NCBI GenBank assembly: GCA_963930775.1
Contig: OZ005689.1
Coordinates: 8,072,854-8,136,853, forward strand
Reading direction: 5' to 3'
Length of the DNA: 64,000 nt
DNA from: Cliona cf. orientalis
Lineage: Eukaryota; Porifera; Demospongiae; Clionaida; Clionaidae
A model generated the notes under the pieces. The model was not told the DNA's origin. It saw only the letters and a program-made list of their open reading frames with translations, and ran no database searches. This document shows positions 1 through 22,718 of this stretch, in pieces (the stretch's first letter is position 1; each line of letters opens with the position of its first letter). The position numbers and the translations under genes were made by a program.

Positions 1-3000
1 CTGTGTGGTTTTGATTCATCAGCAAATATCTCAGCTCAGCTCTAGTGGACTGGTAACCATTACAAGTTTCAATATTTGGAATAGATCGGGTGGCACTGCA
101 CATGCATTTTTCGCCGGAGTTGACCTGGAACACTACCATGTCGGAGTGGTTGGTGGCAGGATGATCTTGCCACCACGTGCTATAGAGCCAGGATCAAATG
201 GTAAACATTTGATATGACATTGTAGCTATTGTAATCCAAATCTATTACACACACAGGTAAAAAGACTAAGCTTAGCCTAATAATCGGAGTCATAATGGGA
301 ACACTATCAGGTTAGTATAGTAGCTACATGTACTGCTTATCTCTTAAGCTACAGGAAATTGGTCACCACATTTGCCATAGAGAACATATCCCTCTCCCCT
401 TCCCCTCTTCCTTCGAGACATATTGTGACCAACCTTCTTTGGTCTTAAATCTTTTTCTTTCATACTGGCTTTATTTTTTACAGCAATCTTTATGCTGATA
501 GCAGTGGTGCCAGTGCTTTTGTGTTGCAGACTATATTGGAGGAGAAAACATGCATCAAACAATACCATAGTGGTGAGTACTATAAAAGAAGATTGAAAGT
601 AAAAATTAACACTTTTTTGATCTATTTTCTTTGTTTAGAATGTGACTAGCTGTGATGAGCCAGAACCATGTGATGAGCCAGAACCACTGACTGTTGAGTG
701 GCTTCTCCCCCGTCTGCTACCCTATGCCTCCAAGTGGTTCTGTCTGGGGAAAGCCTTGTCTATAGACAACAATCAATTGTTAGAGATATGCAACAGGACC
801 ACAGGAAATGCAAGAGATGATGATGATAGTCTTAAGGAAATGTTGACACTCTATATGGAAAGGTCTGATCGAAGCTGGAAGGAGATTGAGGATGCCCTGA
901 AGACGATGAAATCTAGTGAGTTTCAAAACAATAAACAAGCTAACAGATTCTTAACATGACATTGTGCAAGTTAGTTGTACCATTAATTTTTTACCACAAG
1001 TGTATGCTGTGTATTGTGCCAGCTAGACTTCCCTAAGGTCAGGTAACAGGCCAACCCCACATGTGTACGAACAGAGCATACACCCTTCCATTCATCCCTA
1101 TCACCCACTCACTGTCTTACGAAGCTTGTCTTCATGATGTGTGACATGTCCGTGGACATACCATCCCACACTGGGTCTGAGCATATTCAAAGAGCCTAAT
1201 GGGTGAAGTACATGTAAATGGTGCTAATTATCTCAGAATGAATTTTACCACAGTGTGTACAGGCAGCTGCAGAAGACAATGACTAATATTAATGTTAATG
1301 ATAGTCATAGCTTGTGGTAAGCAGTAGTGGGGTTAGCTCAGTATGTCTGTAGTTGAGTTAAAAGTCCTGTGTGTAGGGTGGGGGGTGGGGGTGGGGTGGT
1401 GAAGTCATATAATGATAGTATTCATGTTCAATGTGATTTATACTTACTCTTTTAAACATTATCGACACAGCTGCATAATTGTGATTCTAACCTATACAGG
1501 TACCACAGCTGTTCAAACAACAACTCTGGACTATCCAGGACAAGGAGGACTCTTCGTATCTGTACGATAACTAAATTATTAAATAATTATTATTTTTATA
1601 ACTTATCATAACTCGTTTATCCTGTAATAGCCTTCCGAGACAACGTTTGAACCTACAACACAGAAATCTTCCAACCGGTTTATTGAGGATAGCCATTTGC
1701 AAGGTAACGATAACCGTTTCATTAACTTTGACCAATCCCTCTCACACATCGGCAGTGGTTGTGGAGCATGTTTTCATGTATGTATACTGAGATATTACAC
1801 TTGCACTTTCTGTCAATTATTTTGAATTTTATTGTTGCTTCTTCTATTAGAACGTAAAGTTCATGGTCAGTGTCAAGAGGATCTAACAACAGAAAAAAGT
1901 AGGCTACTGTTAATGCATATACACACATCACCTCTTTAATAGAACTTATATGTATATACCATATTCATTTTTAGTGCATGTTCAAGTATAATTGATTTGC
2001 CTGTATGAGCATACATGAGCCCAGTAGCTAATATGTAGGCATGCACGTCACCTTGCTCTTTGATAGAATACACCGTACTCAACACAGTAATTATTTGTAG
2101 TAAGTGCACATTCAAATTGGTTTGCCTCATGCGCATGAGTATACATGGCTTGGCATATTGTTTCCCCCTAGGTTTCTGATTAGTTGTAGTACAAAATAAA
2201 CTAGAGCTCTGTAGAGCACATACCCCGCGCGCTCTGTAGCCACTATAGCGTCGTATTGCAACACTATGAGGCATACATGTAGCTGTTTCATGACGTGACG
2301 ACCCTTTCCAACACAGTGCTTGAGCATGCGTAGTCGCATCCGCATACTATTATGCTAAAAGAGTGGGTGTGGTCGATAAACCACAGGCATGCTGAACAGA
2401 AAATGCACGATTTGTAGCACTAGTAAGACTTTTTGAGGAATATTATTTGAAACACGTATAAACCAGTTTTTCACCGATATCCACCGATTGGTTGTGCTTT
2501 CAGCACGCATAGATCTGGCAATTTTCGTGCCGACAACGACGACGACAACGACGACAGACAGACAAACCGATTACTTTACCCCTTGCGCATGCACGCGGGG
2601 TAAAAATAGCTTACATGCAAGACTGGCATGAAAAGTTTAGTTCCAATGATCATACTTGTGTAGCCCAACATACCTAATCACATGTGTATCTCTGTCTTGA
2701 AGGTCATCAAACTGATACAGAAACACCTGTGGCAGCAGACAGATCGAAGTTTGTGGTTCCCGATAGGAAGCGTCTATGTAAGTTATCTGAAGCACTAGGA
2801 TACCTAATGGTTAATTGAAAATTCATCGTTCATGAATTTTGTGATTTGAGAGCCACCTGTGAAAATATTTCTCCACGAAATTTAGGCATGCCCCACCCAT
2901 GTATACAATTGATTTAGCATTAATTCCACCACGTACAGTCCACTCAGGAATATATATTATTAATCGGTGAAAGTTTCTCCCTAAAATGTTTGCTATAGAG

Positions 3001-4212
3001 TATAAACTATATTAATTGATTTTCTAGATCTTCAGAATGGTAGGAGAGACATCACAAGGAAAGATTTGTCCGAGTTACCCTTAGAGACCTCCCCTCCCAC
3101 TCAGGATGATAACGATACTACTATACGATTTTCCGGAAGAGCTGGGGACCAGTAAGTGTACACTAGTCTGTAGGGTTAGTTCATAATAGCCGGATATGTC
3201 TACTACTTGCATAATGTGTGCATAAACTTCTCAAGGTTAATAATAATAATTCATTCTTAACTCGTTTACCGGTACTATGGAAGTGAGATACATAGCTAGT
3301 GTCCCAAGTGTGTAAGTGCCCACTCCTGGCTATATGTAAGGCTTGGCACCTATATGCATTGTGGGGTTGATATAGCAGTTTCCGTATCACAAGTAAGTAT
3401 ACTCCAAAATCTATGTGAGACAATAATAATATGTTTAGTTAATTGGCTATAATATAGGTGCTAACATTTAATTCTATTATTATTGTTTTTTATTCAGCAC
3501 TCCCCCCACCATCAATTCCCCTACGAAGGCTATTGAAGGTACACAATGTAAGTCCTATAGTAGCATGAAGTTTTGGAATGAGACTTTGTGTAACAATTTC
3601 AGAATCTGACCTAGCTATTATAGTAACACTGTTACATGCAGGCATGATGGCACCCGGTAATTATCTGATGGATATTCATGAATGTACATCTGGTCCTAGA
3701 GAAAATGTGGAAAAACAGGTTAGTGAATAGTAGTATTATATTACCAGCATTTGACTGCTATGTAGAGGTCACCAAATTAAATAAAGAAAATTAATTAGCA
3801 TGCTCAGGGTGTGTATTAACTGTGGTTATGGGGTAATTATGGTGTAATCTATGAGATAATACTAATAAGAAAATTTAGGACCTCCATGGATCCTTCCTGA
3901 TACTTGAAAATGTAATAATTATTATGACATTGTAATGCATGTATTCAGCTGATACCTTATAAGGTGCGTGCATGCTATATACTTTCCCTGATAAGTATGG
4001 CTGATCAAACTTCACGTTTTCCCATGGCTTATGTATGCGGCTACGTACTATACTGGGGATAATAATATTATCTATCATCAAGACTTAGTGTTTCAATTAA
4101 TAATAATAATAATAATGCTTTACCATTTATATAGGATGTTGATAAGGATGCTACCAATGCTACGTATGCCATTATCGTTTCTCCAACAGAAGAAACCAGT
4201 ACCACCAATTAG
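1..4212 (+). CDS. Receptor A: membrane protein with death domain (5' partial)
   Basis: Exons read as 1-200, 257-310, 484-572, 639-915, 1500-1561, 1631-1703, 2703-2777, 3028-3151, 3498-3547, 3642-3718 and 4135-4212. All have GT/AG borders, phases agree, and the joined frame gives 385 residues to a TAG stop. The gene starts left of the window. Exon 1 is the end of the Cys-containing membrane-proximal module (HQQISQLSSSGL, ending VGVVGG), matching receptor C. The membrane span is split over 257-310 and 484-572 and is followed by basic YWRRK. Exon 639-915 codes the death domain. The tail is low-complexity, rich in Thr, Ser and Asp, and ends in YAIIVSPTEETSTTN. The donor at 3547 could instead be at 3537, in the same phase. 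It converges on receptor B. Function is inferred: a cell-surface receptor passing a signal through a death-fold adaptor. Confidence 0.85.
639..915 (+). CDS. Receptor A exon coding the death domain
   Basis: After a short acidic direct repeat (CDEPEP twice) the exon codes about 75 residues with the death-fold pattern: helix 1 VEWLLPRLLPYASKW, then LGKAL, an Asp-rich loop with LLEIC, the helix SLKEMLTLYMERS, and a last helix with W and AL (SWKEIEDALKTM). The same spacing occurs in receptor B at 10824-11093. Death domains pair homotypically with adaptors; which adaptor binds here cannot be told from sequence. Confidence 0.8.
2200..2607 (+). repeat. Dispersed repeat R2 in a receptor A intron
   Basis: Runs from CTAGAGCTCTGTAGAGCACA and TACCCCGCGCG to CACGCGGGGTA, with an ACGACGACAACGACGAC run before the right end. 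The inverted TACCCCGCG ends and several copies in the window suggest a MITE. It lies in the intron between exons 1631-1703 and 2703-2777 of receptor A. Frames read across it on the minus strand are not genes. Confidence 0.65.
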
Positions 4213-4566
4213 CTAACAAACTTGATTATTATTTATTATCCACCCAAAACTTGATCACATTGTATAATTATGTACAATAACAACTTGGCATAATAATAGG
4301 TATTATTATTATTATTATGATTGTACAGCTACAGGTATACAAAATTATATGACGACAGTATTATTATTATGGCATTGTATCACTCAAATTAACTGAATTC
4401 TAATTTAATAATTACTGATCAAAATATATACTACTCATATCTGATTCATTAAACTTGATACAGTAAAGCCAGAAATATTGGTGAGAATTAAATTAATTAA
4501 TTTGGCGGTTGAGCCCAAAATCACTATTGCAAGAATATTGGCAGATTTAAATTGGCGGTTCAGTAC
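4213..4566. other. AT-rich 3' flank of receptor A
   Basis: Downstream of the stop codon there are short ATT/AAT microsatellite runs (about 4290-4320) and no reading frame with splice signals. No canonical AATAAA lies close to the stop, so the transcript end is not located. Two short repeats of the word TTGGCGGTT flank the next element. Confidence 0.5.
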
Positions 4567-4849
4567 ATAATTGAAGGGCTCAGAACCAGAGTGGCCTAAC
4601 CCACAAAATTAATGTTGAGTTAACCCCCTCCCCTAATCTTGAAAACATGTTTAAAATGCATTTCATGAGCAACAGAAAATTCATAGTTTTGAAAATTTGA
4701 GTGATTTTGGTAGAGTAGGGTGTTTGGTTTTTAGTCCATTTTTGAGCTTTTTAGACAATTTCCCATATTCAATTTGGGGTTAGGCCTGTTATGACGCAAA
4801 TGCCATCTAACGCAAATGCGATCTATCAACACTTAGAAAAATTCGACAG

Positions 4850-4945
4850 GGAAAAAAAAAAGAAAAAAAGTCAAAGTGTACGGCAAGATTCGAACCCGCT
4901 CTATTCCGTCCCATACATAAGAGCCCAACCACTCGACCACCACCG
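4850..4945 (-). ncRNA. tRNA-like / tRNA-derived SINE head with pol III boxes
   Basis: On the minus strand, TGGTCGAGTGG (4939-4929) fits the A-box consensus TRGYNNARNNG. GGTTCGAATCT (4896-4886) fits the B-box. About 32 nt separate them, as in tRNA-derived genes. Further downstream on the same strand is a long T tract (about 4870-4850), a natural pol III stop. I could not fold a full cloverleaf with a matched acceptor stem, so a SINE head or tRNA pseudogene is likelier than a working tRNA. Confidence 0.45.
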
Positions 4946-5013
4946 TTGTTGCTGCTGGCAGCCGTTATTTCAACTATTTTATAGACAAACCCTACACAAC
5001 CCAGCCCCTCCCA

Positions 5014-5355
5014 CACTAACCCTGCTAACCATTCACAACCCAGCCCCAGACCTCCCAGCCCCTCCAGTCCATGTATACGCAAACCCTAGAGACTAACCCT
5101 GCTAACCATTCGCAACCCATCCCCAGACCTCCCAGCCCCTCCCACACTAACCCTGCTAACCATTCGCAACCCATCCCCTGACCTCCCAGCCCCGCCCATC
5201 CATATCGTCCAGCCCCTCCAGTACACGTATACGCAAACCCTTAGAGACTAACCCTGCTTACAATTCACAACCCATCCCCTCCCACACTAACCCTGCTAAC
5301 CATTCGCAACCCATCCCCTGACCTCCCAGCCCCTCCCATCCATATCGTCCAGCGA
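5014..5355. repeat. Minisatellite, ~54-bp unit, C-rich
   Basis: Units starting ACTAACCCTGCTAACCATT recur at about 5014, 5092, 5146, 5248 and 5287. Spacing is irregular because some units carry an extra block (CCATATCGTCC, GTATACGCAAACC). It is strongly strand-asymmetric, with C on the plus strand. It lies inside the inverted-repeat element and is not coding. Confidence 0.75.
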
Positions 5356-5448
5356 TCGCGGCGGCGTACGTACCGGCATATCGCGAACGGATCGGGATCG
5401 CATTTGCGTCGTAACAAGGCCACTCTGGTTCTCGACCCTTCAATTATA

Positions 5449-6390
5449 ATATGCGAGTAGGAGATTTTTAATTTGGCGGTTGGAATTAATTATTGGCAGT
5501 TGTTAGCACTTGAGATACTATTCTCTGAATTAAATTTGTATCCAATGCTAAACTATGGAACTTGGTTCTGGTGCACAGTGTTCAGCTTGTAGATCCTCTC
5601 CATAATTATTATGGGGCTCTGTTGTGCATGTGCTTAACTTATCAGATTCTGCACGTCCTAGCTGCAATGCTTGTGCTCCATCTGTGTGCATGTGACACAA
5701 GGAGTCGCTGTGCCTATAATATGAAATTAATAGACAATGCAAAATTAATGCATGATGACTAAGTTACTGCACTATTTTTTAATCGCCATGCCCTAACAAG
5801 TTGCAGTCCACCATGGATGTCTATGACATTCTACTCCAGTCTTAACCTACTTCTAGCATTAATTAGGTGGCTACTATAATATATAGCGACCTATTGCGAA
5901 GGGAATGTTCAGCCACTTCTCTGGCCACCTAATTAACACCTGAAGCATGTCAGGCTTACCCTGGATTGGAGGATATGATTCTAGATGTGGCCTACCAATC
6001 AAGAAATCCCTCTCAAACTATCATTACTATTGTTATTGGAGATCTAGAGGTACATATACCATGCGGTGCATGTACATAATATAGCACATACACAGGGTCA
6101 ATCTGAGACAAGCCATTAAGGATTGGTATTCCAGTACATGTCAATGACATCGTACAAACATATAAGTACATGTAAATGGGGTGTGTGGAACTCCATACCG
6201 TGTTCGAGTTTGGGTTTTGGGTTCGGTTTCGGTAGTGGGAAATATTTATGCTTGTTGCCATGGGTTAAAAATTCTTTTTCATGGTTAGTTGGTTATCCTT
6301 GAAATCACGGAAATTGGATCCCTCAAAAATTTTCCGCTACAATAGCCATTGATAACATGATACCCAACATGATTGTCTGGGCACTGTAAC
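5449..6390. other. Intergenic between converging receptors A and B
   Basis: No exon with splice sites and no strong inverted repeat was found here. It holds the 3' flanks of both receptors. A weak CATAAA occurs on the minus strand downstream of the receptor B stop, but no convincing poly(A) signal. Confidence 0.4.
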
Positions 6391-9300
6391 CTACCATTCT
6401 TCGCTATCGCTGTAGACATGGTGGTGTGAAGGTATTACATACTCATGAGTGGGTCGCTGCAACTCTGTGGAGTTCCTACTGAAGTGTCTGTGTCTATGCA
6501 CATTGGAATAATCTGCACAAAAATTATTATCAAATACATGTAATGGGAGTAGTATCGATATTATCATCTACCACAATGTCATACCTTCATTGAGTCCAGC
6601 ATTATGCATACAGGATGATGAGTCACGTGATGTGTCTGATTCACTGATGCTTTCTCGATCCATTTCCTACAAACAATAAAATTTAATTGTCACAATAATA
6701 ATTATGGGTGAAAGATGATCATTACATTTGGTACTATTATGAAGCTGTGTACAGTACAAGGTAGTGTGCATGCAGCTAAGGGAATTGAATTAAAAACAGC
6801 CTCATTTGTTTACCCAACGAGAGCGATTAATAAATTCAATAATTTCTGATTATAAATTTATCACCACAGATGTGCAGATTGGGCAATCAATTAATTTAAT
6901 CACGCTCAATGCTTGAAATAGTATATCATGTGATCTACAAACGGACCAACCTGTAAAGATACCACTAATGTGAACACCGGTCGTACCTTGAAAAGTTTCT
7001 ATTACATATAGTGTTAGATTGTTCTATACCCTTTGATCGTCATGTTGAAGGTGAATACACTGTGATCTTGAAGGGTCGGTTTCTTGTACCGTCTCTGGAA
7101 TAGGATATGCGAGTTCCAGATCATCATGATCAGAACTAGAAACCACCTGCACATGTGTTCATAACATTAACATTATGACTGACAACATGGTGCACGGTCT
7201 TAGTCCCTTAGAGAGACAAAAAAGTGAACATAGTCCCTTAGAGAGACACAAAAGTGAACCACTGTCATTTCCTCATCCACCACAAAGATAATGTTGTCCA
7301 CACGGGTAACATCCCCACGCACTATATTTTATGCTTTGTAGCTCCATAAAAGGAAACATAAAGCACCAGCGGCAGACATCTTGGCACCAAGACTAATTCA
7401 ATAACTGAAACCATGCTGTATAGCATAAGAATTTAACACCTATATCAACAGCATCAGGTGATCTATCAAGTGCTGCACATATACGTGTAATACAACAACT
7501 ATAGCTACTGTGATCATAGTCATAATATTATTATCTTATCTAGACAAGAAGTAACTCCACAACTTACATGTACATGTACTTGTTCAGCTTCTGTTTTTTG
7601 TGCGTGAAAAATTGAGGCAGATAAGCCAACCAACAGCGTAACACCAGAATCTGATGTCGGATAATCTTCTGTTGCTATATAATAATATTATGAGAAGATA
7701 ATACTTACTACTGTATACTGGGAAAACTTTTCAGTCCATAAGCCAGCGGTCCAAAACATATACAAGCGTTGCAGATCCAGGAAGTGCATCCGGTGGCACA
7801 TTCCAGTGCATGCAATTTTTGTCGTTTTTTATCTATTTTTCTTACCTGTTCTATCTAGGCCACCTTTCACTTCTAGGACACCAAACAAAGACCAGAAGAC
7901 AGAGCAACTCTTCTACTTTCTGCTCGTTCAAGTCCTATAACCCGGAGACATTCATGAGCTCCGCGGCGACCGCTTTTGTGCATGCTACTCTCAAGCGCTC
8001 ACAAAAAGTGCCTCGCGCAAAAAGTGGCACGTTTTGGTTTCCTAGGATGGATTCCCATGTTTCAAGTACCATTCCATAGCTCTTGTGTTGCTCTACAATA
8101 TAAGACTAAAACAAAGTTTTTCCATCGAGCGGTTCCAGAGTTACACGGCATCAAAAATCGGAAAATTTCAGTACAACCGCGTGGTATTCTCCACGTCTTC
8201 TCGAAGTTCTGTCGAGTGTCTGATGATTTATCCAGTAAATACCAAGGATGGGAGTGCTCTTCAAGTTTCTAGGGAGTAGACATCATCATTCAAATGGTTA
8301 GTTTCTTTCTATATTCGAACTTTCAAGAAAGAATCTGGACGGAATTGTTTGGTAGAGGCTAGCCTCGAACCCAGGCTCACTTGGGATTCAAGGCTAGTGT
8401 GAGGCAAGTACCTAACTTCTGTATCAGGTAAATAATGAAGTTCAGGGATGAGGGTGAGCCTTACCAGTTGAAATGGCAAAAGAATAGATAGATACTGCGC
8501 CATAATTTGTGTAAATCAGCTGACATTGAAGCTGAAAAGCATAAGTTCACATCCATGGAGTGGGTTAGGTATGCTAGCACTTGTCCCACCTATCTTTCTT
8601 TCTCTCCCTCTCCCTCCTTTCTTTCACTCTCTCTCTCCCTCCTTTTCTTTCACTCTCTCACACACACACCCCTACCACCATGTATGTGCACGTACACAAC
8701 CTCTTAGGTGGTGATCAGCCATCGATGAGTATGAGATGATGAGAAGCAGGATCACACTGAGTTCCACTGCCAAAGAGAAGGTGCTGCCTAGGCCTCCTCA
8801 GACTTGGCTTTTGTTTTGAAGCTATCTTCTGAGGTGCTGAGAGAACTAGCTACTCGATCTAGGTCCTCGCACCATCTCTATGGCTGCTTGAGCACTTTCT
8901 CTATCAACCGTAGTTGTCAATGTGTGATGATGGCATAGGAGACAGGTTGTGAAAGCTTTAACAACCTTCTGCAAACCTTCAAGAAGGCCTTTGATGGCTG
9001 CATTAATATCTTTGTACCACCTAGAAAGCTTTGTCATTGATTTATACGTATTTTATTCAATGTTTCTATGGTGAAATAACAAAAATTTATACTATTTTTA
9101 ACAGCGTATATATAACTTTGGAACCGCTCGATGGAAAAACTTCGTTCTAGTCTCATATTGTAGAGCAACACAAGAGCTATGGAATGGTACTTGAATCATG
9201 GGAATCCATCCTAGGGAACCAAAACGTGCCACTTTTTGCGCGAGGCACTTTTTGTGAGCGCTTGAGAGTAGCATGCACAAAAGCGGTCGCCGCGGAGCTC

Positions 9301-12300
9301 ATGAATGTCTCCGGGTTATAGGACTTGAACGAGCAGAAAGTAGAAGAGTTGCTCTGTCTTCTGGTCTTTGTTTGGTGTCCTAGAAGTGAAAGATGGCCTA
9401 GATAGAACAGGTAAGAAAAATAGATAAAAAACGGCAAAAATTGCATGCACTGGAATGTGCCACCGGATGCACTTCCTGGATCTGCAACAATTGGACCGCT
9501 GGCTTAACGGCTGTTTTATGGTTCGGTAGGAGGAGAGCACTTTACAAAATTAACTGGATAGGTATATAATATGGTATTGTGATACAATAAGCTAGAGGCT
9601 ACAAACCACCAAAGCATGGCAATCTGGATGTGTATATGTATGTACTGTATAGTTGGGAAACTTCAAGTCAAAGAGGAAGTTTTTATGATTTGGGAGCCAC
9701 CCGTCGAAATTTTTCTCAGCAAAATTTATTAGGCATGCCGTCCCCACCATAATATCATGTATACATTGGTGGTACTTTGATCTGTCATATACATAGGATG
9801 TAATATACCACTTACCTTGGTTGGGTGTCACTTGAGGTATAGCAATTGCTAGCTCATCATGTGATTCACGATCTCCCACAGACTCTTCCATAGTAGGAAC
9901 TGCCTCTGTTGGCCCTCTATCCAGTAAATTTGTATCAGCTGTGCGTCATGTGTATAATCACATAATACTTATGATAGTAACAATCATTACTATAATATAA
10001 TATTCATGTGTGTGAGTGAGTGTACCAGACTGCACTAGCCTATCTCCAGCCCTTTCAATGTTGTAACACTGAAAGCTGGGACGAGGCTAGTACTGTATGT
10101 CTATCACTATGGTGAGAAAAGAATTGATGTCAATCTATAGCTCCATAGAGCAGCATACCCGCGTGCACATTCTTTATGCTTGAATCTATGGATAGATGAG
10201 AGCCATACATTATACTATGCTTGCCCCGTTATGCACACAAACAGAAAGCAAATGATATACTGCAGTGGGCACTGTCCACAGGCGTGGCCAAAACAACACG
10301 CTACTTGTGATTCTTGCCAAGCCATTCAAAGTGCACTGAAGCCAATTTGTCGCTGATTTTGTTAAACATGCCAGGCTTGCTGTGCCACACGAGTGTATGA
10401 GTGTATGCAACTGTGTGTGTAGTACCACAAGTGTCCTTTTATCATCTATTTGTGTGTTTATGTATTAATATCTCTATCTGCCTATGTGTATTTACACATC
10501 CAGGTGTGTGTAGTAGTACCTGTTTGTGGTTTACAAACCTCTTACAAGTTTCAGTTTGAATATGACTGTCCCTTACAAAAAGGAAATGTAGGTCTGATGG
10601 GTATCAAAATTATGGTACAGTACACTGTAATCCCTCGTATAATATATGTATGTCATACAGACCCAGTCATATGCATACCATTATATAGTTCTTGAGGGCC
10701 AGGGCAAACATTTATGCATTGGTACATACACACTCATGACCACACACAAGGTAGAGTAATTATCTTAATTATTTACTTTGGCTCATACCATTCAATAGCT
10801 TCTCTGAAGAATGATAAACTTACTTTGACTGATTTCATTTGCCAGTGCTTCCTCTCCTAATTTTCTCAGAGCATTTGTTATCTCCACCCAGTCATGGACC
10901 AGGTCTGATCTCATGAGGTAATACTTGAGCATTTCCCGGAGACAATTTTGTGAAGAATCGCACTTAGTGAAGATTTCATCAAGAATATTTTCAGTCACGG
11001 ATAAGACTTCACCAATATCCTTCCATTTGTCAGCCACAGGTAATAAGTATTTGACAAGATTCTCAACGGTAAATGGAGTTGTTGTTTGGGAATCTATAAG
11101 TCCCGTGAAGTGTTGCTAATGACAACACACATGATGATTTACATGTTGTACCTGTGTGTACGTTTGTACTGGCTTGATAAACAAAGGGTGATTCCCTTGT
11201 TTCCGTCTGATAAGAACCTAGAAAGTCAGACTGTGCAGCAACCTGGTCATATGTCGGCAATTCTGAACTAATGTTCCTGGTGCTGTCCTCTGATCTCGAA
11301 GGAATTTCTAGATAGCGAGGCTCTGATTCATGACTCTTTAAATCAAACAGAGAATGCAGATTTCAGTGTATACAAGTAAAATTTTATTAACTTACTTCTG
11401 CAACGGGCGTACTAAAGTGCATAGATCTGCAATGATTACAGTATCAAGTTATAATTGTATCAAAAAATGAAAATGAATTAAGTTATTGGTTTCATACAAG
11501 TGTATGTACCTGGCTCTTTTAAATTTGGAATAATATCGACAATATGCCAAGATTAAAATCAGTGTCACAGTGGTAACCACTCCAAGAAGTGCAATCAAAA
11601 CTCCTAAGTGAAGTTGAAATTTAGCTGTATTTTCATGCTAACAATAGTGTGTATTTAAATTAGGATATTAATAATCTACGAGTGAATCTAAATAATAATT
11701 ATGTGTAAATTGTCTGCATTAAAGTGGACTAGTCTTACTATACTACCGTTCTTTTATTGTGATATTTTATTCACTTACCTGGATAAACAACATCTGAGCT
11801 TAAATCATTAGTACAACATGTAGAATCTGAAATAATAACAATGTTCACAGTATAGAAAGCTCACTGCAATAGATAATCATATAATACGTACCCGTATTGG
11901 TTACTAAATGTGGTACCTGTCTGCCTCCAATTACTCCAACTTGATAATTAGTCACATTGACATTTTGAACACACCTATATCCCTTGTCTCCAGACCTAGC
12001 AATCTTGAAGCTTGTGACAATGCTCGTCAGATTAATTTCACACTGAGAAAGGCCGAAGCAAAGTACTTTTTCATGGACAATTACCACACAATGCTGAGCT
12101 GATTTGTCAAGGAATGTGCACTCAACACAAACACCATGACCGTTAGTGGATGCTTGGGTAACCTTGTACTCGATAGTAGTTTCAGGCTCTGCCATATCTA
12201 CACAGATCATATTGTGAACATACAATAGAAATGAAAAGAACCACAAGTAATGTATAATTGTATACACTTGATCTGACCTTCCCCATTCTGAACAAATAGT

Positions 12301-14498
12301 CTTTTGGGAGCTGAAGCACTCCTATTAAATGGTAGCCCACCGTCTTCAATGATAAACACCGAGATACCATATTGGCCAGCAGATAGTCCAATAACTGTAG
12401 TTGTTATCGTGTTCGTTATCATTGTCTCAAATGCCTCAAAATAGTACACATTGAGGTTGACATGATCCAATGGGTATATAATAACTAGAATGCCCACTGC
12501 AGTTGCACCCTGAACAAACACTCCAGATACTCGGACTTGACCAGAACTGGGTGAATAGATCAGGATATTTTGAATGTCATGAGTACCTGTAATCAGAAGG
12601 AAGGACATTATGCATACAGAATTTTGGTACTTTCAGATCATTTTCGAGGGCACTGAAGTCATGAATAAAAATACTACAATAATATTATAGCTGGACATTT
12701 TGGTGAGCACAAAACTGTACTCAATGTACATGCACTGAGGGCGCTAAGCATTCAGATTTGAATTCAAAACCAACTGAGAGCTGCTTCACCAAAATTAATC
12801 TTAATGCTTGCCAAAGTCTCCCGCTATAATAATATTATTACCATGGTATGATAAAACCATGGAGCTATGTGCCACTCACTTAGTTCTGCTGTACTGGTAA
12901 GTGGATGTTGATTACAATTATAGGCAATCACAGTATAGTTCCACCGCCTTCTAAGAGGAAGAGGCTGTAAACCGAGGTCAACAGAATTTCTATCAATTTC
13001 ATCAATTGTTGCTCTATGTATTGCTGTCTCTTCATTGATTCCATCATTAGGGACCAACAAAACGGAGTATGAAGTAGGTTTTGCTGTAAACAATCCACCG
13101 ACTATTTCCTTTACAGAAAAATTGTAGAATACACACTTTCATAGAATATTCACAAAGTGCTTAAGATTATGTATAGAGAGATTGAACTCCTTGAAGTTCA
13201 AATTGGATATCGCAGCAGAAACATGTTTTCTACATTTCTTCATGGAAATCCAAACTCATGCAGGCCAACTGAACTTACAATCATGGTGAGCTGTGCATGA
13301 GCCCCAAACAGCACATCCTCAAAACAAACATTTAGATGTGTTACACGATACTTCACAAATTCAACTACAAGAAAAAGGTAAAGTTGCATATAATAATAAC
13401 ATTACTGTATGGAAGTATGCTGTTCTATTTAATGATAAACCTTGTGTTATCAGCATAGTTCCATTCTTAGCACCTTCTACGTTACTTCTTGGAGTTATAA
13501 TCACCTCATAAGTATGATACTGTGAGTATCCAAACAGGTTTAGCTCTGTTTCTGTGATTGCGCCATTTCTAAATGCTATGGATCCATTTCCACATGTAGT
13601 ATTGATCACTTTAACATAATAAATGATATCGGGATCAACATTTGTCAAATCCAGGGAAAATGGAGCGTCCCATGAGAGTTTAAGCACATTCGAGTTTACA
13701 TGAATGTCTAAACTAGTGACTTTCTGTAGTGGCCCTGCAATATTATTGATAAATGCATTGGTTCATGATAACTCTTACTAGGAAATTGAATCTCAAAATT
13801 TAATATGCATGTCAAACCATGAGAGTAAAATTATTAGTCTAGGAGTAGATGCATGAAAGTTGTGTTGGCCACGTGCTAACACATAAGCAGAGTGATTTAA
13901 TTTTTGCTGTTGTAATGATACTGGCATCTGGTGGTGCAAATCAGAATTCTGTTATCACATTGTGCAAGTGTACTATAGATCTCATATAATTATTGTATGT
14001 TAGCAGTAAGAACATGGGTAACACCTATAATATTATAGGTATATAATACCTTGTATTCTGAGAATGACTGTGGGTGATAACTCCGTTGCAGTAGTTGTAT
14101 CAAAAAACAGAGCTACACAATCCACTTGAGTGTCATCATACCTCAAATATGTTTCAATAGTTAAATTTGATGTCAATATGTTGCCATTTAATACAGCCAG
14201 AGTTTCATGAGCAACGGATATAGGAAGATTCCTCACTGATGTACTATTGACCCTCCAAGCTAAGGTATCAGCAGTAGCATGTGTGCATCTGAATAGAGCA
14301 CTTTGTTCACTTGTCACATTTAATGGTAGAGGTACTTCAATAAATACTGGAATAGAAGCACATATCATTGAAGCCGAGGAAATTATTAAGGTATTATGTA
14401 TGTATGACTGCTGTAATGTCATAGTATAATATTATACCTGCACAAATCTGTAGTCTAAGAGTGACTGTGAACATAATAGTCACCAACTGGCATATCAT
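6391..14498 (-). CDS. Receptor B: Ig-FN3-FN3-TM-death-domain receptor (complete)
   Basis: Exons in transcript order: 14498-14438, 14346-14050, 13734-13441, 13364-13279, 13108-12880, 12586-12278, 12197-11892, 11826-11779, 11603-11510, 11426-11396, 11335-11152, 11093-10824, 9938-9816, 7674-7568, 7146-7030, 6666-6585, 6512-6391. The sum is 2760 nt, 919 residues plus TAG, with all phases consistent. The first exon (MICQLVTIMFTVTLRLQICA) is a signal peptide. Residues 21-119 are one Ig domain (FRC...LAWRV...VDCVALF). Residues 120-217 are FN3 and 218-322 a second FN3-like domain. Residues 323-425 are the STHD module and 426-527 the Cys module (CVECTFL...VGVIGG). The membrane span is about 544-567 and the death domain 647-736. 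The tail has tyrosines in RYLEI, LPTYDQV, EYVIP and VYSDS. Ectodomain exons start and end in phase 1, apart from the split inside FN3-2. B diverges from C and has one Ig domain fewer. Confidence 0.9.
7198..7260. repeat. Tandem duplication of ~30 bp in a receptor B intron
   Basis: TAGTCCCTTAGAGAGACA followed by an A-rich AAGTGAAC stretch occurs twice in a row, with small differences. It is intronic, just upstream (in transcript sense) of the exon 7146-7030. No function is suggested. Confidence 0.6.
7740..9512. mobile_element. 1.77-kb foldback element with ~410-bp arms, inside a receptor B intron
   Basis: 7740 to about 8160 is repeated in reverse complement at about 9100-9512, nearly identical over some 410 bp. 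The outer ends read TAAGCCAGCGGTCCA on each side. The 0.9-kb centre holds a pyrimidine-rich stretch (8580-8680), no transposase and no exon. It sits in the 1.9-kb intron between exons 9938-9816 and 7674-7568, so the receptor B pre-mRNA would carry a very long hairpin. Frames inside the arms are mirror copies and not taken as genes. Confidence 0.85.
8359..8398. repeat. Short foldback, CTAGCCTCG family (degenerate)
   Basis: A stem CTAGCCTCGAACCCA pairs with TGGGATTCAAGGCTAG around a short loop. It resembles the hairpins at 10034, 23198, 29101 and 61367 but has more mismatches. The 9 bp on each side (GGTAGAGGC and GTGTGAGGC) agree at most positions, consistent with an eroded target duplication. 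Confidence 0.5.
10034..10091. repeat. Short foldback, CTAGCCTCG family
   Basis: ACTAGCCT...CCCTTTCA pairs with TGAAAGCTGGGACGAGGCTAGT across a ~12-nt loop. The outer stem matches the other copies; the inner stem has its own sequence. It lies in the receptor B intron between the death-domain exon and exon 9938-9816. No clear target duplication remains. Confidence 0.6.
10824..11093 (-). CDS. Receptor B exon coding the death domain
   Basis: Codes DSQTTTPFTVENLVKYLLP then VADKWKDIGEVLSV, a loop, CLREMLKYYLMRS and DWVEITNALRKLGEEAL. The W, the hydrophobic ladder and the closing AL helix match receptor A and the death-domain fold. The acceptor at 11094 continues the phase of exon 11335-11152. The preceding exons code a ~65-residue juxtamembrane stretch with LPTYDQV, which contains an LPxY motif (a possible WW-domain ligand, inferred). 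Confidence 0.8.
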
Positions 14499-15551: not shown

Positions 15552-15602
15552 TCCGATTTGGAACGCCCCTGGGGGCCCGGGCCGGGGGCGTTCCAAATCA
15601 AT
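15552..15602. repeat. GC-rich perfect hairpin upstream of receptor C
   Basis: GATTTGGAACGCCCC and GGGGCGTTCCAAATC are exact reverse complements separated by a short G/C-rich loop. It lies between the divergent receptors and about 150 bp from the C start codon. It may be a minimal foldback insertion or a structured promoter element; no target duplication is evident. Confidence 0.7.
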
Positions 15603-15754
15603 ATTCATGAAATTGCGCGCGATTTTAATAAGCCGAAACAGCTACTTCCTTATTTCAGTCATAAGCGTGCCGATTCATTTGAAGTTCAGTTTTGAACTGT
15701 GCCAGCTCGTCACTGTGTGAAATTCTCTAGTCTACTGAACAGCTGCTACCTGAA

Positions 15755-18700
15755 ATGATGTCAGGCCATCTCTTCAAACTGCTAGTGCCGCTTTACTTTC
15801 TCGCCGTAAATAGATCCTTCGCCGGTATGTCTATGTATGCAAATTTGTAATAGCGACCATTACTTGAACTTCATTCCGATCCAGCGCTCTGCGGGGGGTT
15901 ATTTCGTCAGTTTATCACTGAATTGGTCACTTGTGCATGCATCTACCAGCTATTAAACTATAGATCTATAGATCCTTTCCTTTAGTATGACTGAATAACT
16001 TAGTAAAACATGACTACTTCCTCAGCTATTATTTCATCCTATTCAATATTGAATAATTATGAGTAGTGAGCCGGCTGTTGGAGCATAGATTATCTATTGT
16101 TAGAGGGACATCTATGAAAAGCGCTTTCGTATGTTCTTTTTAAGGTTTCATGGAGCTCCCACAGACACGCAACGTGACAGCTGGTAGCGAAGTAGAGTTT
16201 AGATGTCAGCACTCAGAAGCTGATTTCATTGGATGGAGAGTGAACAATGTGTCAGTTAGGAATAGCCCTCTACCTGGAGTCAGCCAAAGCCAGGCCGGCA
16301 CCGCTCTTACAATCCTCGCTCTTCCCGAGTATAATGGGACAGTGGTGGAGTGTGTGGCTCTGTTTTTGGACGGATCTCAGCCAGAATATTCTCCTCCGGT
16401 GTATTTAATAGTAGAAGGTATAGTTGTAAATATGGAATACTCGGTGTTGAATACGTAATACTATACATAATATCGGTAATGAGTTTCACCACATGGTAAT
16501 TAACGATGAAAGGGATAGTACATATGTATGTTCGTATATATGCATAACACATGTTCGTTGCAGGAAATTGTAATAGTACAGTAGCAATAGCATTTATAGA
16601 AGAACCCGAGTCACAGAATGTGGCTATTGGGGAGACAGCGGAATTTCGATGTCGTCACCCTACTGCTGACTACATCGCGTGGACAATAAACGGAACTTCG
16701 CTGAACAATCTTAATCCTAATAATATCTCGACTACAAGTATCCTTCTCCCTGGAGGACACTCGAGATACATACTGTTAATTGGGGCAATCCCAACTTATA
16801 ATGGAACAATTGTTATCTGTGTGGCAGCATTTGCAAATGAGTGTCCCTCACAACAAAGTGGCCCTGCCGTACTATTAATACAAGGTGAGCTCACTACATA
16901 CTGTCATGCTATGATAAGCATTATTAGTTATAGTATAGCTATTATGGTCGTATCAATAGAGTGATTGCTTTGAATCTAGCCATGTGTTTGTCTGTATGGG
17001 TTTTCTATTTAAATTTAATTTCCTGGCATACATCCTTTCAGGGCCGCTTCTAGCAGTAACTGCACTTGTTCGTGGTTTCATATCTGATCAAACATTTTCA
17101 TGGAATCCCCCACCTACCCTGGACTTGACAAATGTTGAGCCAGATATTGCCTACTGTGTCATTATCCATAACATTACATGTGGGAGAAACGACTTTTTGA
17201 TCGGCGATTGTAGCCGGACAGATCCATTTTATATTTATGAGGATATTCATCCTGGACATGTCTACAGTATTTTGGTTATCCCAAGGAGCAATGTGGACAG
17301 GGCTTTAAATGGAACTCCGTTATTCATAGAAGGTATGTTTATTATTATTAGGTGATTTTATGTGTACTATCAGGTACCAGATGTCACTGCCATAAATTTG
17401 TTTACAGAAACTTTTGTTTCGTATCAAGTTGCAAATATTAATCTAATCAAAGAAGACGATTCTTTGAGCATAAGTGTGGTTTTAGAAATCGCACCTAACA
17501 CATCCAATTCAGTATGTTGTAATGTACAGTATAGTTGTCTTAAATTTAGTATGATTTAATTGTGTTTGCAACCAGTAGATTTCTGGCTATAGGATTGTGC
17601 CAGATATGTATGATGTTAATGTAACTGCGGCTGATGGCGTTGACGATTTGCCGACCACAGTATCCCAGAGGCTGCAAGGGGATGTCCATAATTTGACATT
17701 CACACTTGAGGGCAAACGAATATGGAAATATGAGTTTTTCGCCTACGGTTGCAAACAGCACTCTTTAGGGAATATCTCGATAAGTATGAGTGTATAGTTA
17801 CGTACTTTACAATCATGTGATCATGGTGTTTTCATAACTATTTTAGGTACTCATGATGCCTACAATATCTCGGTTACCTCTCCTGACCCAGGTGTTGTCA
17901 TGGTGGCCGGGAACTTCATTGTGGGAACATCAGCCAAGGGGGTGCTCGTTATTATGTATTCTCTCACTAATGATTCTGATATACTCTACGTAACTAGCGA
18001 TGCTCATCAACTAGGGGGTATAAACGCCAATCTCGGGATCAATAATTATGGTACCTACGGGGTGGCCGTCTTTACCCTGGAAGGGACTGGACTACCATTT
18101 CCGAGGGTTGCAGTGCTACCTCAGGTGGTAAAACATGAGCCAAAAGGTGTAACTACCGATGACCTATCCATAGTACGACATTAATTATATTATTTTTGTG
18201 TAGATGGTGCTGTGAAGAGCAATGCAGGTGCTATCCCAACAAAAATTAAATATGAACTCCATCCTAATTCAACTGGTGTTTGCATCACCTGTACCTTCCT
18301 GGAGAGTTCTGCCACTGACTGTGTGGCAGTGGTACATCAGCGAATCTCTCAGCTCAGCTCTAGTGAACTGATGAACATTGAATCAAGTCACAAGTTCACC
18401 AGATCTGGTGACACAGCATATGGATGTATTAAAGGAGTGATATATGGGGATATGAAATACCAAATTGGTGTAGTTGGTGGTGAAAAAGCATCTCAAGAAC
18501 TTGATGTTGTGCATACAGAAGGTATTTAACATTTATTTCCTCCCGGATTGTGCACTATTATTTGAAATTCTTCAATTACTTGCAGGAGTTTCACCACATC
18601 CCATTTCTACTACAGATATTGTAGTTATCGTCATAAGTAAGCCTGGGTATAATTATTATGATATGATTAATGAAATAGTTCCGTAATAGAATCACAATAC

Positions 18701-21700
18701 ACAAAGCTAGGAAATTGTATTAGCTTTGAGATTAGCACAGATCAGAAATTAAAGGAGAGGAAGCCAGAGAAATATTTGGTGTGCTCCACTGATAGACACT
18801 TACTATGCTTGTTTGTGGTCGATATTGGAATGTAATTGTACTGTGGTTACATAATCAACCCTCAGCTACTGTCCAGGAGCATGTACGGCAGCTTATGTGC
18901 ATCTGTATTGTAATTATTGTCTGATAAGCTATAATTAGTGGCCACCCTTCAACTAAGAATATTTCCCCTTATTGATAAAAGCTGTAAACACTCACGATGA
19001 TAATTAAATTCATACCAATTATTATTTAAACCTCCGTAGGTATAATAATATTGGTGGTGATAACTGTTGCTACTGCAATACTGGTCGTGGTTATGTGGAG
19101 GTGCAATGCTATCAGTTCTAAACCATTTACAGCAGGGTATGCATAACAAACATATAGTTTTGTTAATGATGATTACTACCTTAAAAATAGCATACGACTT
19201 AGGCGCATTGGAGGTGAACCCATTCATCAGCCATTGAATGTAAGTTTGCAAATGTATTCGGCATATCAATAAGTCAATTTAATAATATGCAGGCAAATTA
19301 CCTACATGAAGATCCCAATCAAACCGTTATCGCTCAAAACCTGTGTTTGCTACAACCACATGCAGCCAAATGGAGAATTGTAGCAAATGTATTTGGTATT
19401 TCTCCTGACTTGATGGTTAAACAGGAGACAGATGAGGCTTATCTCCATGAGATACTGGTGCAGTGTGTTGACCAGCCCGATTTTCAGTTTAAATTCAATA
19501 ACCTTGTGGAGCGTCTAAATAAGGAAGCCGAGGACGAAGCAAAAAACACAACAAAGCAAGGTAGCTACGCAGTCATGCTAATCATATGCATGTGCAGAGT
19601 GTCTGATGTTGTGTATTACATGGGGTATACGTATGCATATTATAGATGTGCCCCCTCCCCCCCCCCCCCACCATACCTTTCTGAAGAAAATCCTGACTAT
19701 AATTATTATAATAATATAGTTGTATGTTCATTGATCCGCTGCTGAAATGATATTATGCACAAAAATGAAAATGGCTTATGATAACTACATTAATACATCA
19801 TTTATAGGTTTTAAGGGTTTAATTTTTGTCATAAATACTATTATTACAATAACATTAACTGTACCTTGGCACACCAGTTAAATGACTATCGTAAACTCAC
19901 CTCACATCCAGGTGCTGGTATTTCCTTGGAAGAGGAAGATAAGAAGCCTGGTAAGGATCCATGATTACATACATAATAATATAATATGTTTTGGTTGCTT
20001 CATTCCTCAGATAACTCGGTTGTGGAGATTGGACCTGCTGGACATGCTGAACGAATTGTGATAGCTGTATGTAGACCTCACTGTATTAATCCTTATTCTA
20101 CTATTAAACCGTAATGTTTTTTTAGGATTCATTGCCTAAGGACAATCCCAGTGCTGGTGCTACTAAACCAAGCAAGGCTACCACTGAAGTGGCTGCTGTA
20201 ACACATCCTATACAAGAGAGCGGATCAAGGGCTAAAGCTTATGAAGGTGTGGTAAAGGAGCAGCTGCGATATGTGAACTCAACAGGTGTAGATAAGGTAC
20301 CGGTAAGAAAGTTCCCAATGTACTTAAAATTTACTTGTAAGAGTCGATAATATTTTATCCCAGGAAATTAAAAGTGAAGATATTATGGTTAGGGCTGATT
20401 CCCCACCAGAGAATGCAAATATGAGTGGCGTATGGAATTCCATTGAACCTCGCAGTGAATCAGGTATATACAGCTAACTCAGTGAAACAGAGATTGAGTA
20501 TGTGATGACTATGTTCCCTATATTTTAGCTCGTAGATCCACTCGTGTTCAACAAACGCATCGGAGTGCACCTGATGAAGATAAAGAGCTGCCACAACAGC
20601 CTGATGGAATCCCATTTCCTCTAGAGCACCCTCCATTTGAGTACGTATTATAGCCAAGATTGTATTGTACGTCAAGGTCTCTAGAGTGCACACTACATAT
20701 CAGGGCTTCATTTGCTTGTCCCCTAGCCATAGAGTCATAGTAGCCAGCTACCATTAACTGACAGCTCTGATCTCCTTCAGCAAAAGGGCTGTCAATATGC
20801 ATTCCCTTTCATATAATTCGGGGCGAGCCTGAGCGAGCCCCGAATACACGAGGTACAGGAAGCGGTTTTATATGTATATATATAATATTATATATATATA
20901 TATATATGTTTGTGGGGCTCTGTTTGTGGGGTGATCATTTCAGTGAGGAGAGAGTTAAATTTTTAACGCGTAAGGTAATGGTCGTCATGCGCATGCGCAT
21001 ACGCCTGCAATGCACCATCGATCTGAGAGACAACTCGAGTGTATATAGGCAAGGCATAAAACTGGAAAGGTGAGTGCTGTACCACTCTGGCAAGGCTCAG
21101 GTCCACGATTAACATCACTGGTGGACTCCACTTTCCTGAGCATGAAGATGACTGCTTGGAGGCTTATTCCCTCAGGGCCTGGCTACAGGTACTAGGACTC
21201 ATAGTCATGGCATGTAGACTATCAACATTGGACTAGCTTTTGCTATTATACTAGCAATCTGTGATACTTTCACTGTTGTGGTAGCTTCTCAGTCCTAGCT
21301 ATTGGGGTACCAACCCTATGTGCGCACGTATACCTGTGTGACTCTTATGACTTTGGCGAAGGCTCGCCCCGCACAGATGATTTTCATCACCACTAGTTAT
21401 AATTCTACACACACCTTGCTAGCAAGATTGCAATTATTTGACGACCATTACCAATTCTGAACTTGCACGTGGATGCACAATCCAGCTGCACTATAGCCAG
21501 TATGTCCCCAATAATTAGGTTGCGATGGGACTGTGCTACATGCATAATTATCTGAGCATAATGCATTAACGATCCTTTACCAATTCATGCGGGGGGGGGG
21601 GGGGGGATTGGATAAGATCACATGGACAACATAACTGCTAAAATCAGCAAATGTTATCCCCATAGTATTGCAGTGTATATTATGAAGCTAGCTTCTGTCG

Positions 21701-22718
21701 CTAGTCGATATTATCATGCAACAAGCTGATAATCAACTACTATGAAGGTTATTTGGCTGATTCTTTGTTGACAAACCCCGCTATTTTTGTGGCCACCAGG
21801 GTCATGTAAAGTCTTCCGCCTGAAATACCTACTCGGACCAATTACTATCATCAGGTCCTGACTTTTCTCATACTTACCTCAATGTAGATTACATTATTAT
21901 TTCACCATACTACTATAATCACAAAAAAGTGAATTGCAGATATCATATGTTACATTAAAGCTTTGCCTGTGTGTGATATAATCAAAGGAGTGCAACAATC
22001 AGGAGTCAGTACTGTCCACAGGTGTTTTCTTCAGGAGGCGATTTTATTCTAAGCGTCTTCTCTGGGGAGCCCTTGCGAGCAAAGCTTATCAAATTTTTCA
22101 GGCTAGTGCACCTGCCCTACCCAAACTAACAGGGGGTTTGACATTTTATGAAATTAATGTGAATGCCCCCCTACACCAGGGCAGTAATATTTTTGGGTCA
22201 AAGACTTGTATAAAGACAGATTGTTTTCTTTCAGCGTATATAGGTGATTTTCTGATTAAAACCAGGCAGCTCAAAAATCAAAAACCCCACCCTGGGGCAA
22301 GATCAAGAAGTCCTTTAATCAATTTTGACAGGTGCATAGCGACAAAAGTAGTCAGGAAGTACACGTGCATACATGGTCTACTCTCAACCTTTTCGCTCGA
22401 CGACCTTTACCCACAAGCGAGTGGATAGAGTAGGTGAAGGTCATCGGGAAAAGTTATAACGATGTATGACGCTAGCTAGTCTTTTTCTCTCGACGACCTT
22501 TACCCACTCTATCCTGAGCGAGCAAAGCGAGCTCACTCCTATTAAAGTTTGATCATGGTCGATGCCCCATCACGGAAATTAGAGTGTGAGTCAATATCAA
22601 TATTGACAGGAGTGTTATTTATTAAAGTCATTAATGTTTAGAATGTGGACTATTAATTAATTTTTTTGAATATTTTTATACAGTGAGGATCGATGATGAA
22701 CTTGAAGTTGACCCTTAA
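15755..22718 (+). CDS. Receptor C: Ig-Ig-FN3-FN3-TM-death-fold receptor (complete)
   Basis: Exons: 15755-15824, 16145-16417, 16564-16884, 17042-17332, 17408-17511, 17579-17783, 17847-18146, 18204-18521, 18586-18636, 19040-19136, 19203-19239, 19293-19560, 19912-19950, 20011-20066, 20126-20302, 20364-20463, 20529-20640, 22688-22718. The sum is 2850 nt, 949 residues plus stop. Residues 1-23 are a signal peptide (MMSGHLFKLLVPLYFLAVNR). Ig1 is about 24-114 and Ig2 115-221, each with C...W...C and YNGT before the second Cys. FN3 domains are 222-318 and 319-421. The STHD module is 422-521, the Cys module 522-627 and the membrane span about 638-668. The death-fold domain is about 690-778, and the tail 779-949 has AYEGVV and RYVNS. 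Most sites in the ectodomain are N-glycosylation sequons. The last exon could instead start at 22684, giving a stop at 22694-22696. A poly(A) signal lies at 22834. Confidence 0.9.
16145..16884 (+). CDS. Receptor C exons coding the two Ig domains
   Basis: Exons 16145-16417 and 16564-16884 each code one whole Ig-like domain of 91 and 107 residues. Each has VEFRC or AEFRC, then a short strand with a Trp (IGWRVNN, IAWTING), and YNGTVVECVALF or YNGTIVICVAAF. The usual DxGxYxC is replaced by YNGTxVxCVA. Both exons are bounded by phase-1 introns, so a domain can be gained or lost without a frameshift. Receptor B has only one. Confidence 0.85.
17847..18521 (+). CDS. Receptor C exons coding two unassigned membrane-proximal modules
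   Basis: Exon 17847-18146 codes a ~100-residue beta-rich module (THDAYNISVTS, GTSAKGVLVIMY, NNYGTYGVAVFTLEGTG). Exon 18204-18521 codes a ~106-residue module with VCITCTFLESSATDCVAVVH, RSGDTAYGCIKG and YQIGVVGG. Receptor B (12586-11892) has both, and the left edge holds the end of the second in receptor A. I do not recognise either as a named domain. Four cysteines in the second are conserved between B and C. Confidence 0.8.
19293..19560 (+). CDS. Receptor C exon coding the death-fold domain
   Basis: Codes ANYLHEDPNQTVIAQNLC and then QPHAAKWRIVANVFGISPDL, a loop with acidic residues, AYLHEILVQCVDQPDF and KFNNLVERLNKEAEDEAKN. The length, the HAAKW..VA motif and the final amphipathic helix match the death fold, but it diverges more than A and B do from each other: the closing W..I..AL helix is NLVERL. 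It could be a death-effector or CARD-like member; death domain is favoured from gene context. Confidence 0.65.
20641..22687. other. Last intron of receptor C, with repeats
   Basis: A 2.05-kb intron. It holds a small GC-rich inverted repeat (20817-20846, ATTCGGGGC...GCCCCGAAT), a TA microsatellite (20868-20907), the motif GGTAATGGTCGTC at about 20974 and its inverse at about 21440, a 16-G tract (21591-21606), and from about 22040 the left end of duplicated unit 1, with the GACGACCTTTACC hairpins at 22394-22535. Confidence 0.6.

Follow-up and report, generated by a model that had tools for sequence, protein, structure and literature searches.

We analysed a 64,000-nucleotide stretch of the genome of the sponge Cliona cf. 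orientalis (the window; C1:8072854-8136853) that contains three receptor-like genes, A, B and C, and compared them with their relatives across the genome (216.8 Mb, 149 contigs). The relatives occupy stretches elsewhere in the same genome, numbered L013-L035, and the results below come from sequence comparison within this one genome. Members of the family share an ectodomain plan and one membrane span, and their tails differ between close relatives.

Gene B (minus strand, 14498-10824) and gene C (plus strand, 15758-19560) each form a chain of 12 stop-free exons with GT-AG introns, encoding 736 and 777 amino acids, respectively. Gene A, on the plus strand, is cut by the window start at exon E7, and the 10 kb upstream consist of N; what is left of it, from the end of E7 to the death exon, is a stop-free chain of 206 amino acids with GT-AG introns and consistent phases. 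The exon order is signal peptide, immunoglobulin (Ig; one exon in B, two in C), Fna, Fnb1, Fnb2, E6, E7, stalk, membrane span, one or more juxtamembrane exons and death (Table 1). L033, a relative ~0.1 Mb away, is open across 14 exons and 1,059 amino acids. The entry phases of C (0,1,1,1,1,0,1,1,1,1,2,0) recur in L033 up to the juxtamembrane exon, and the series of B is that of C minus one Ig exon. Between E7 and the tail, the top hydrophobic 19-mer lies at residue 545 in B (Kyte-Doolittle (KD) value 2.85), 639 in C (3.26) and 648 in L033 (3.52). Weaker hydrophobic 19-mers occur elsewhere in all three chains, including one at the signal peptide in B and L033; the signal peptide of C was called by eye, and no 19-mer of KD 1.6 or more was found there.

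An earlier note on this DNA had described three adjacent paralogous receptors, two of them complete. The exon chain extends from signal peptide to death exon in B and C and is seen from the end of E7 in A. Completeness was not borne out: none of the chains of A, B, C and L033 was traced as far as a stop codon, and a search for relatives of the stretches past C's death exon (19561-22718) found none. That interval holds several open stretches encoding acidic or serine-rich peptides.

Gene clusters and tail types

Using C's E7 as the query, we found 44 matching places in the genome, 42 of them on C1, mostly in two clusters at 7.97-8.46 Mb and 11.24-11.82 Mb, with one at 12.09 Mb; all candidates of the search (50 of 50) were scored. 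C's E6 matched 39 places, every one on C1. Such tandem clustering of related genes (42 of 44 E7 matches on one contig) is characteristic of clustered and paired receptors of the immunoglobulin superfamily (IgSF). In 20 stretches chosen for their E7 and surveyed to ~4 kb upstream of it, the same strand carried E6 in 19, Fna in 15 and an Ig exon in 12.

Tails were typed by tblastn for 28 E7 copies from the window and L013-L035. A death exon accompanied eight copies (A, B, C, L020, L025, L033, L034 and L035); short tyrosine tails of the type CxAYxV...DNPAY followed 11 (L013, both copies of L017, L018, L019, L021, L023, L024, L027, L031 and L032). Three had another short tail (L015, with YDRL, L029 and L030) and three a long proline/tyrosine tail in which no death match was found (L026 and L016, whose two E7 copies were both entered in this class). 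The short tail of the second L017 copy was assigned by a separate genome-wide tail search rather than by the census, and the E7 of L035, which is not among the 44 matches, was retrieved using B's E7 as the query (E 4.6e-4). Inspection by eye showed DNPAY in L013, L017, L019, L021, L023 and L032; the short tail of L031 is weak (E 0.011), that of L027 stops short of NPAY and that of L024 lies 3.4 kb beyond its E7. In L018, stops fall inside the short-tail match at ~4400-4600 (two TGA, one TAG), and the tail of this receptor, which is readable elsewhere, is probably broken. The death tail, which the earlier note had taken to define the family, is therefore not its signature as judged from these typed copies (8 of 28, the others bearing tyrosine motifs or proline-rich tails), and the wiring to cell death or NF-kB proposed there can apply to only a subset of members.

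All seven in-cluster death exons recovered by genome searches (A, B, L020, L025, L033, L034 and L035) lie downstream of a same-strand E7, an arrangement that is more than chance. Ig and death exons are both present in five of the eight death-tailed genes (B, C, L020, L033 and L034); the three without an observed Ig exon are A, which is preceded by N, L025, which has a gap of 200 N, and L035, whose stretch possibly starts too late.

The DNA of death-tailed L033 is co-linear with that of four short-tailed genes only as far as E7. Across the ectodomain, exons and introns alike, it aligns with L013, L017, L018 and L019 in segments of 75-94% identity. Co-linearity breaks off at L033 4248-4255, 16-23 bases short of the E7 exon's end (4271); further on, only a handful of short segments or matches to another copy of the gene remain. 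With death-tailed L020 and L034, the alignment continues as far as the death exon (~69-83% identity in its main segments), and with L026 it continues through the Pro and Tyr exons. In a tree built from the ectodomains of 25 genes, 22 of which had a tail label, the death-tailed L020, L033 and L034 group with the Pro-tailed L026, nested inside short-tailed genes, and the tree requires at least six tail changes, or four if only long versus short is scored. Together, the break point and the tree indicate that tails changed repeatedly; genes may have exchanged them, or descendants of a death-tailed ancestor may have lost the death tail several times. Similar ectodomains bearing different signalling tails, as in paired receptors, are thus found here at the level of sequence alone. 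The E7 census and the DNA match that ends at E7 therefore point to a clustered receptor family with interchangeable tails.

Tail motifs were compared with shuffles for seven tails and six motifs, uncorrected. YxxI/L/V was in excess in L033 (6 versus 1.19 shuffled, reached by 0 of 2,000 shuffles), L034 (3 versus 0.56, P 0.008), L025 (4 versus 0.88, P 0.0035) and L019 (2 versus 0.36, P 0.04). The consensus of the immunoreceptor tyrosine-based inhibitory motif (ITIM) occurred twice each in L033, L020 and L025 (uncorrected P 0.02-0.03; 0.03 for L033 and 0.018 for L025) and once in L034 (P 0.10). Proline motifs of the PPLPPR kind gave P 0.08 in L033, 0.0015 in L034 and 0.007 in L020 and were not found in L025, and NPxY was in excess in the two short tails tested (P ~0.004).

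Several relatives showed further peculiarities. L026 6531-7400 holds Pro and Tyr tail exons in common with death-tailed genes, and no death exon was found there. At L022 3986-6366 (C1 ~8.4516-8.4544 Mb), E7 lies on the strand opposite to the adjacent Ig, Fna, Fnb, E6 and short tail, which looks like an inverted E7 exon within a receptor gene. Two matches, each with a stop, lie ~40 kb apart on C9 (6.70-6.74 Mb), one resembling E7 (6737622) and the other a short tail (6697139), and are perhaps a decayed relative. A reverse-transcriptase-like open frame, seen by eye, adjoins the receptor gene at L021 6432-8291.

Domain identity and constraint

Pfam Death was matched at E <= 0.1 by seven of the eight family death exons (best 5.6e-7), in a result that does not identify the eighth. 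The claim that all three death exons of the window are of this type held by direct match for B, whose exon passes the PF00531 cut-off of 22.6 bits (23.7 bits as an exon; 18.3 bits, below the cut-off, within the whole chain). For A's exon, the same exon search gave no Pfam Death match of its own at E <= 1, and it was recognised by kinship to those of L033 and B. C's exon is 18% identical to B's and had no Pfam Death match as an exon or in the whole chain; a profile of the seven others detected it at E 8.5e-6 among 1,363 sequences, 1,000 of them shuffles, the best of which reached 0.2, and we read it as a decaying death domain. A genome-wide Death search returned at least 150 matches over the cut-off, some in long single open frames or tandem groups (for example, on C2, C6, C10 and C18).

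The ectodomain plan of Ig and fibronectin type III (FN3) domains, one span and matching phases put forward earlier agreed with the span, the phases and, by profile, the Ig exons. Two cysteines and one tryptophan are invariant in 12 Ig exons. Compared with the PDB, their family profile matched proteins that were all Ig proteins by name among the 60 of 408 matches listed (for example, T cell receptor beta, 4.3e-7), including Robo, DSCAM, NCAM, PTPRD and UNC5D. Pfam Ig_3 was matched at E <= 0.1 by six of the 12 exons (best 0.0011), all under Pfam cut-offs. On these sequence matches, the Ig identity of the exons appears well supported. That of Fna as FN3 is suggested only: its profile gave 11 weak PDB matches (best E 0.031), one named 'hypothetical protein' and ten bearing names that we take to be those of FN3-bearing proteins, Pfam fn3 (PF00041) had no match, and the sole FN3-type match was a weak one of C's Fna to Fn3_Dep-1_1st (E 0.29). 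E6 had no PDB match at E <= 10, E7 had two at chance level, and neither had a Pfam match over the cut-off. The AlphaFold model of E7 (three sequences) has seven strands, a mean predicted local distance difference test score (pLDDT) of 78.1 and structural matches at chance level.

We estimated selection from pooled pN/pS, the ratio of nonsynonymous to synonymous differences per site. Values in cluster 1 (eight genes) were 0.79 for Ig1, 0.66 for Ig2, 0.40 for Fna, 0.36 for Fnb, 0.70 for E6 and 0.46 for E7; in cluster 2 they were 0.68 for Ig (six genes), 0.41 for Fna (nine genes) and 0.63, 0.56 and 0.43 for Fnb, E6 and E7 (11 genes each). By this measure, the family exons behave as coding and constrained.

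Elsewhere in the window, an inverted repeat between genes A and B (7763-8143 / 9113-9493), with 381-nt arms that are 97% complementary and separated by 969 nt, resembles a mobile element. The region right of the receptor genes (23344-53749) consists of repeated blocks: several direct-repeat families with 87-99% identity recur there at spacings near 4.8, 8.2 and 18.9 kb. A homeodomain search of the genome gave 29 matches, two of them close together (maybe one gene) and five on C12 at 7.76-7.92 Mb; a small homeodomain set with a homeobox group fits demosponges.

Table 1. Exons of genes A, B and C, in window coordinates
Gene and exon	Position	Strand	Basis
A, end of E7	2..200	+	46% identical to C's E7; phase out 1; start before window
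A, stalk/start of membrane-span exon	257..310	+	AG-GT, open, phase 1-1
A, membrane-span exon	484..572	+	AG-GT, hydrophobic by eye, phase 1-0
A, death exon	639..915	+	genome searches: E 3.2e-13 to L033's, 2.5e-7 to B's death exon
B, signal-peptide exon	14438..14498	-	hydrophobic 19-mer at residue 5, KD 2.06
B, Ig exon	14050..14346	-	38-43% identical to C's two Ig exons; family profile
B, FN3-like exon Fna	13441..13734	-	family profile matches FN3 proteins weakly
B, exon Fnb1	13279..13364	-	phase and position match C and L033
B, exon Fnb2	12880..13108	-	homologous to paralogues
B, exon E6 (uncatalogued domain)	12278..12586	-	35% identical to C's E6
B, exon E7 (uncatalogued membrane-proximal domain)	11892..12197	-	41% identical to C's E7; one of 44 genome matches
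B, stalk exon E8	11779..11826	-	splice sites and phase of chain
B, membrane-span exon	11510..11603	-	KD 2.85
B, juxtamembrane exon J1	11396..11426	-	phase 2-0, like C and L033
B, tail exon J2, YLEI and YDQV	11152..11335	-	YxxI/L/V 2 versus 0.52 shuffled, P 0.08, not significant
B, death exon	10824..11093	-	PF00531, 23.7 bits
C, signal-peptide exon	15758..15824	+	by eye
C, Ig exon 1	16145..16417	+	Ig_3 E 0.028; family profile
C, Ig exon 2	16564..16884	+	Ig_3 E 0.0066; best stretch chain 127-163, whole-chain E 2.1e-5, below cut-off
C, FN3-like exon Fna	17042..17332	+	family profile versus PDB, weak
C, exon Fnb1	17408..17511	+	splice sites and phase of chain
C, exon Fnb2	17579..17783	+	homology to paralogues; chain phase
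C, exon E6	17847..18146	+	query of genome E6 search
C, exon E7	18204..18521	+	query of genome E7 search; AlphaFold pLDDT 78.1, seven strands
C, stalk exon E8	18586..18636	+	splice sites and phase of chain
C, membrane-span exon	19040..19136	+	KD 3.26
C, juxtamembrane exon J1	19203..19239	+	phase 2-0
C, degenerate death exon	19293..19560	+	profile of seven other death exons, E 8.5e-6

Interpretation and alternatives

Genes A, B and C are probably members of a family of clustered single-pass receptors in which the tail sets the output, akin to clustered paired receptors. For such a family we infer ligand binding, phosphorylation, adaptor recruitment and any immune or allorecognition role. The outer end would meet a ligand, whether self, microbial or other, and the tail would determine the output, with some members most likely signalling through death-domain assembly and others through tyrosine motifs. 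Where the tail is a death domain (A, B, five relatives and perhaps C), a death-domain adaptor would be assembled on clustering; in short-tailed members, phosphorylation at the CxAYxV and DNPAY tyrosines could recruit SH2 or PTB proteins, and several long tails may contribute SH3-type proline sites and YxxI/L/V sites. One recognition surface might in this way be tuned to different or opposing signals, as in clustered paired receptors.

A number of observations weigh against this interpretation. Fifteen of the 42 E7 copies on C1 fall outside the tail census, no tail was found for three of the 28 copies within it (L014, L028 and L022, the last entered as 'none found' although its opposite strand carries a short tail), and no more than 12 of the 20 stretches had a correctly oriented Ig exon within the ~4 kb reach of that survey. 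B, C, L025 and L035 are long branches of unsure place, because of which the deep tree is unsure. The motif excesses are leads, since the tests are uncorrected and the long tails related: YxxI/L/V was not significant in L020 (P 0.07) or B (P 0.08) and did not occur in L023, the ITIM consensus was not found in the tails of L019, L023 and B, a gene of the window itself, and C's juxtamembrane exon has no tyrosine. Structure prediction of C's death exon, the sole death exon folded and the degenerate one, gave three helices (pLDDT 82.2) with no death match listed, as against the six-helix death fold named in the earlier note. As to selection, pN/pS is below 1 in every domain, and the cluster 1 pairs above 1 (7 of 28 for Ig1 and 6 of 28 for E6) are not independent. 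The Ig exons rank with the least constrained; E6 is as loose in cluster 1, and Fnb comes close in cluster 2. Loose Ig exons are no proof of positive selection; together with the clustering they lend some support to the proposal of a recognition receptor family, which the equally loose E6 tempers.

Purifying selection in all domains would also suit tandemly duplicated adhesion or developmental receptors, similar to the guidance receptors Robo, DSCAM and UNC5, whose tails differ through drift and decay and not because they serve separate outputs. The Ig profile matches to Robo, DSCAM, NCAM, PTPRD and UNC5D and the degeneration of C's death exon and of the L018 short tail, with its internal stops, fit this account, but ~40 clustered E7 copies do not, and short tails from both clusters join in one component of nine loci, a relationship that drift alone would not preserve. 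We regard it as rather unlikely. Quite improbable, in our judgement, is that the tails are isoforms, each gene using several by alternative or trans-splicing. The intron after E7 is in phase 1 in A, B, C and L033, which would permit tail swaps, and motifs are swapped by splicing in oligomorphic Botryllus FcoR genes (PMC12065747, in the text available). Yet no short tail was found when sought in the fetched stretches of death-tailed genes, and in genome-wide searches the Pro tail occurred at four loci and short tails at different ones, with no gene carrying both. That the death exons are independent small genes 3' of the receptors would agree with the death domain having its own exon and with gene chains read from genomic DNA alone; it is made very improbable by the continuous frame and phase in A, B, C and L033 and by the same-strand position of all seven cluster death exons downstream of E7.

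A more far-reaching version of the paired-receptor reading, which we offer tentatively and consider unlikely, is that the region is the sponge counterpart of cnidarian, ascidian and vertebrate recognition complexes, with tails traded by recombination at the E7/transmembrane boundary, death tails serving as an output that replaces or opposes those of the tyrosine motifs, and maybe a role as a self/non-self or symbiont locus. If the paired-receptor reading is true, a clustered IgSF family with tyrosine tails and alternative death tails in a sponge would be a candidate system for recognition in an early lineage of animals. As a concrete locus, it would serve to test two things: whether such receptor logic extends to the deepest animal branches, and whether death-domain output once belonged to it.

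Comparison with known systems

Vertebrate paired receptors such as KIR, LILR and SIRP combine closely similar ectodomains with different tails, and their activating members use adaptors such as DAP12. The likeness here lies in similar ectodomains on different tails; we know of no death tails among those vertebrate receptors. UNC5 netrin receptors have Ig domains, one membrane span and a Death domain, all of which are shared with the present family. In contrast, a whole-chain domain search of B, C and L033 at E <= 1, in which HMMER discards most matches above 0.1, listed no TSP1, ZU5 or UPA. The Alr genes of Hydractinia, which belong to the IgSF, and the Botryllus FcoR genes are likened to the family by description rather than by sequence.

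Among sponges, Ig-TIR receptors have been described (PMC6208332 and PMC12909245, in the portions available); they have in common with the present family an Ig ectodomain, one span and a signalling tail, and no TIR was listed in the same search of the B, C and L033 chains. The earlier note had called the pairing Ig-FN3-death unusual; Ig combined with a death-fold domain has precedents in UNC5 and in a transcript of Dysidea avara listed with Ig domains plus a CARD (table of PMC6208332, as far as available). The latter likewise joins Ig to a death-fold domain in a sponge, CARD there and Death here, and the table entry gives neither its architecture nor a cluster. The accessible parts of PMC6208332, PMC12909245 and PMC12723187 cover Ig-TIR, NLR, Ig and FN3 domains and the Ig-CARD gene, and no Ig-FN3-Death family was met in them; those of PMC2575513 and PMC5094078 held nothing on the pairing. 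Literature searches, which reached few subscription papers, led to no recognised description of such a sponge receptor family. Adhesion roles are given for sponge IgSF proteins in the accessible text of a review (PMC11999971).

The recognition-locus receptors of Botryllus and Hydractinia carry ITIM, hemITAM or immunoreceptor tyrosine-based activation motif (ITAM) sequences and core tyrosine motifs (PMC12065747, in the text available). Botryllus FcoR genes, at the fuhc locus, resemble the present family in encoding clustered type I Ig proteins, with ITIM, hemITAM or core Y-x-x-I/L/V tails; they differ in carrying a sushi domain, and 'death domain' occurs 0 times in the main text of that paper as available. 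In Hydractinia, the likeness is that receptor genes lie at one locus, where candidate genes carry ITIM and ITAM-type motifs (same source). Compared with Alr, the sponge family sets death and proline-rich tails beside its tyrosine tails and adds E6 and E7.

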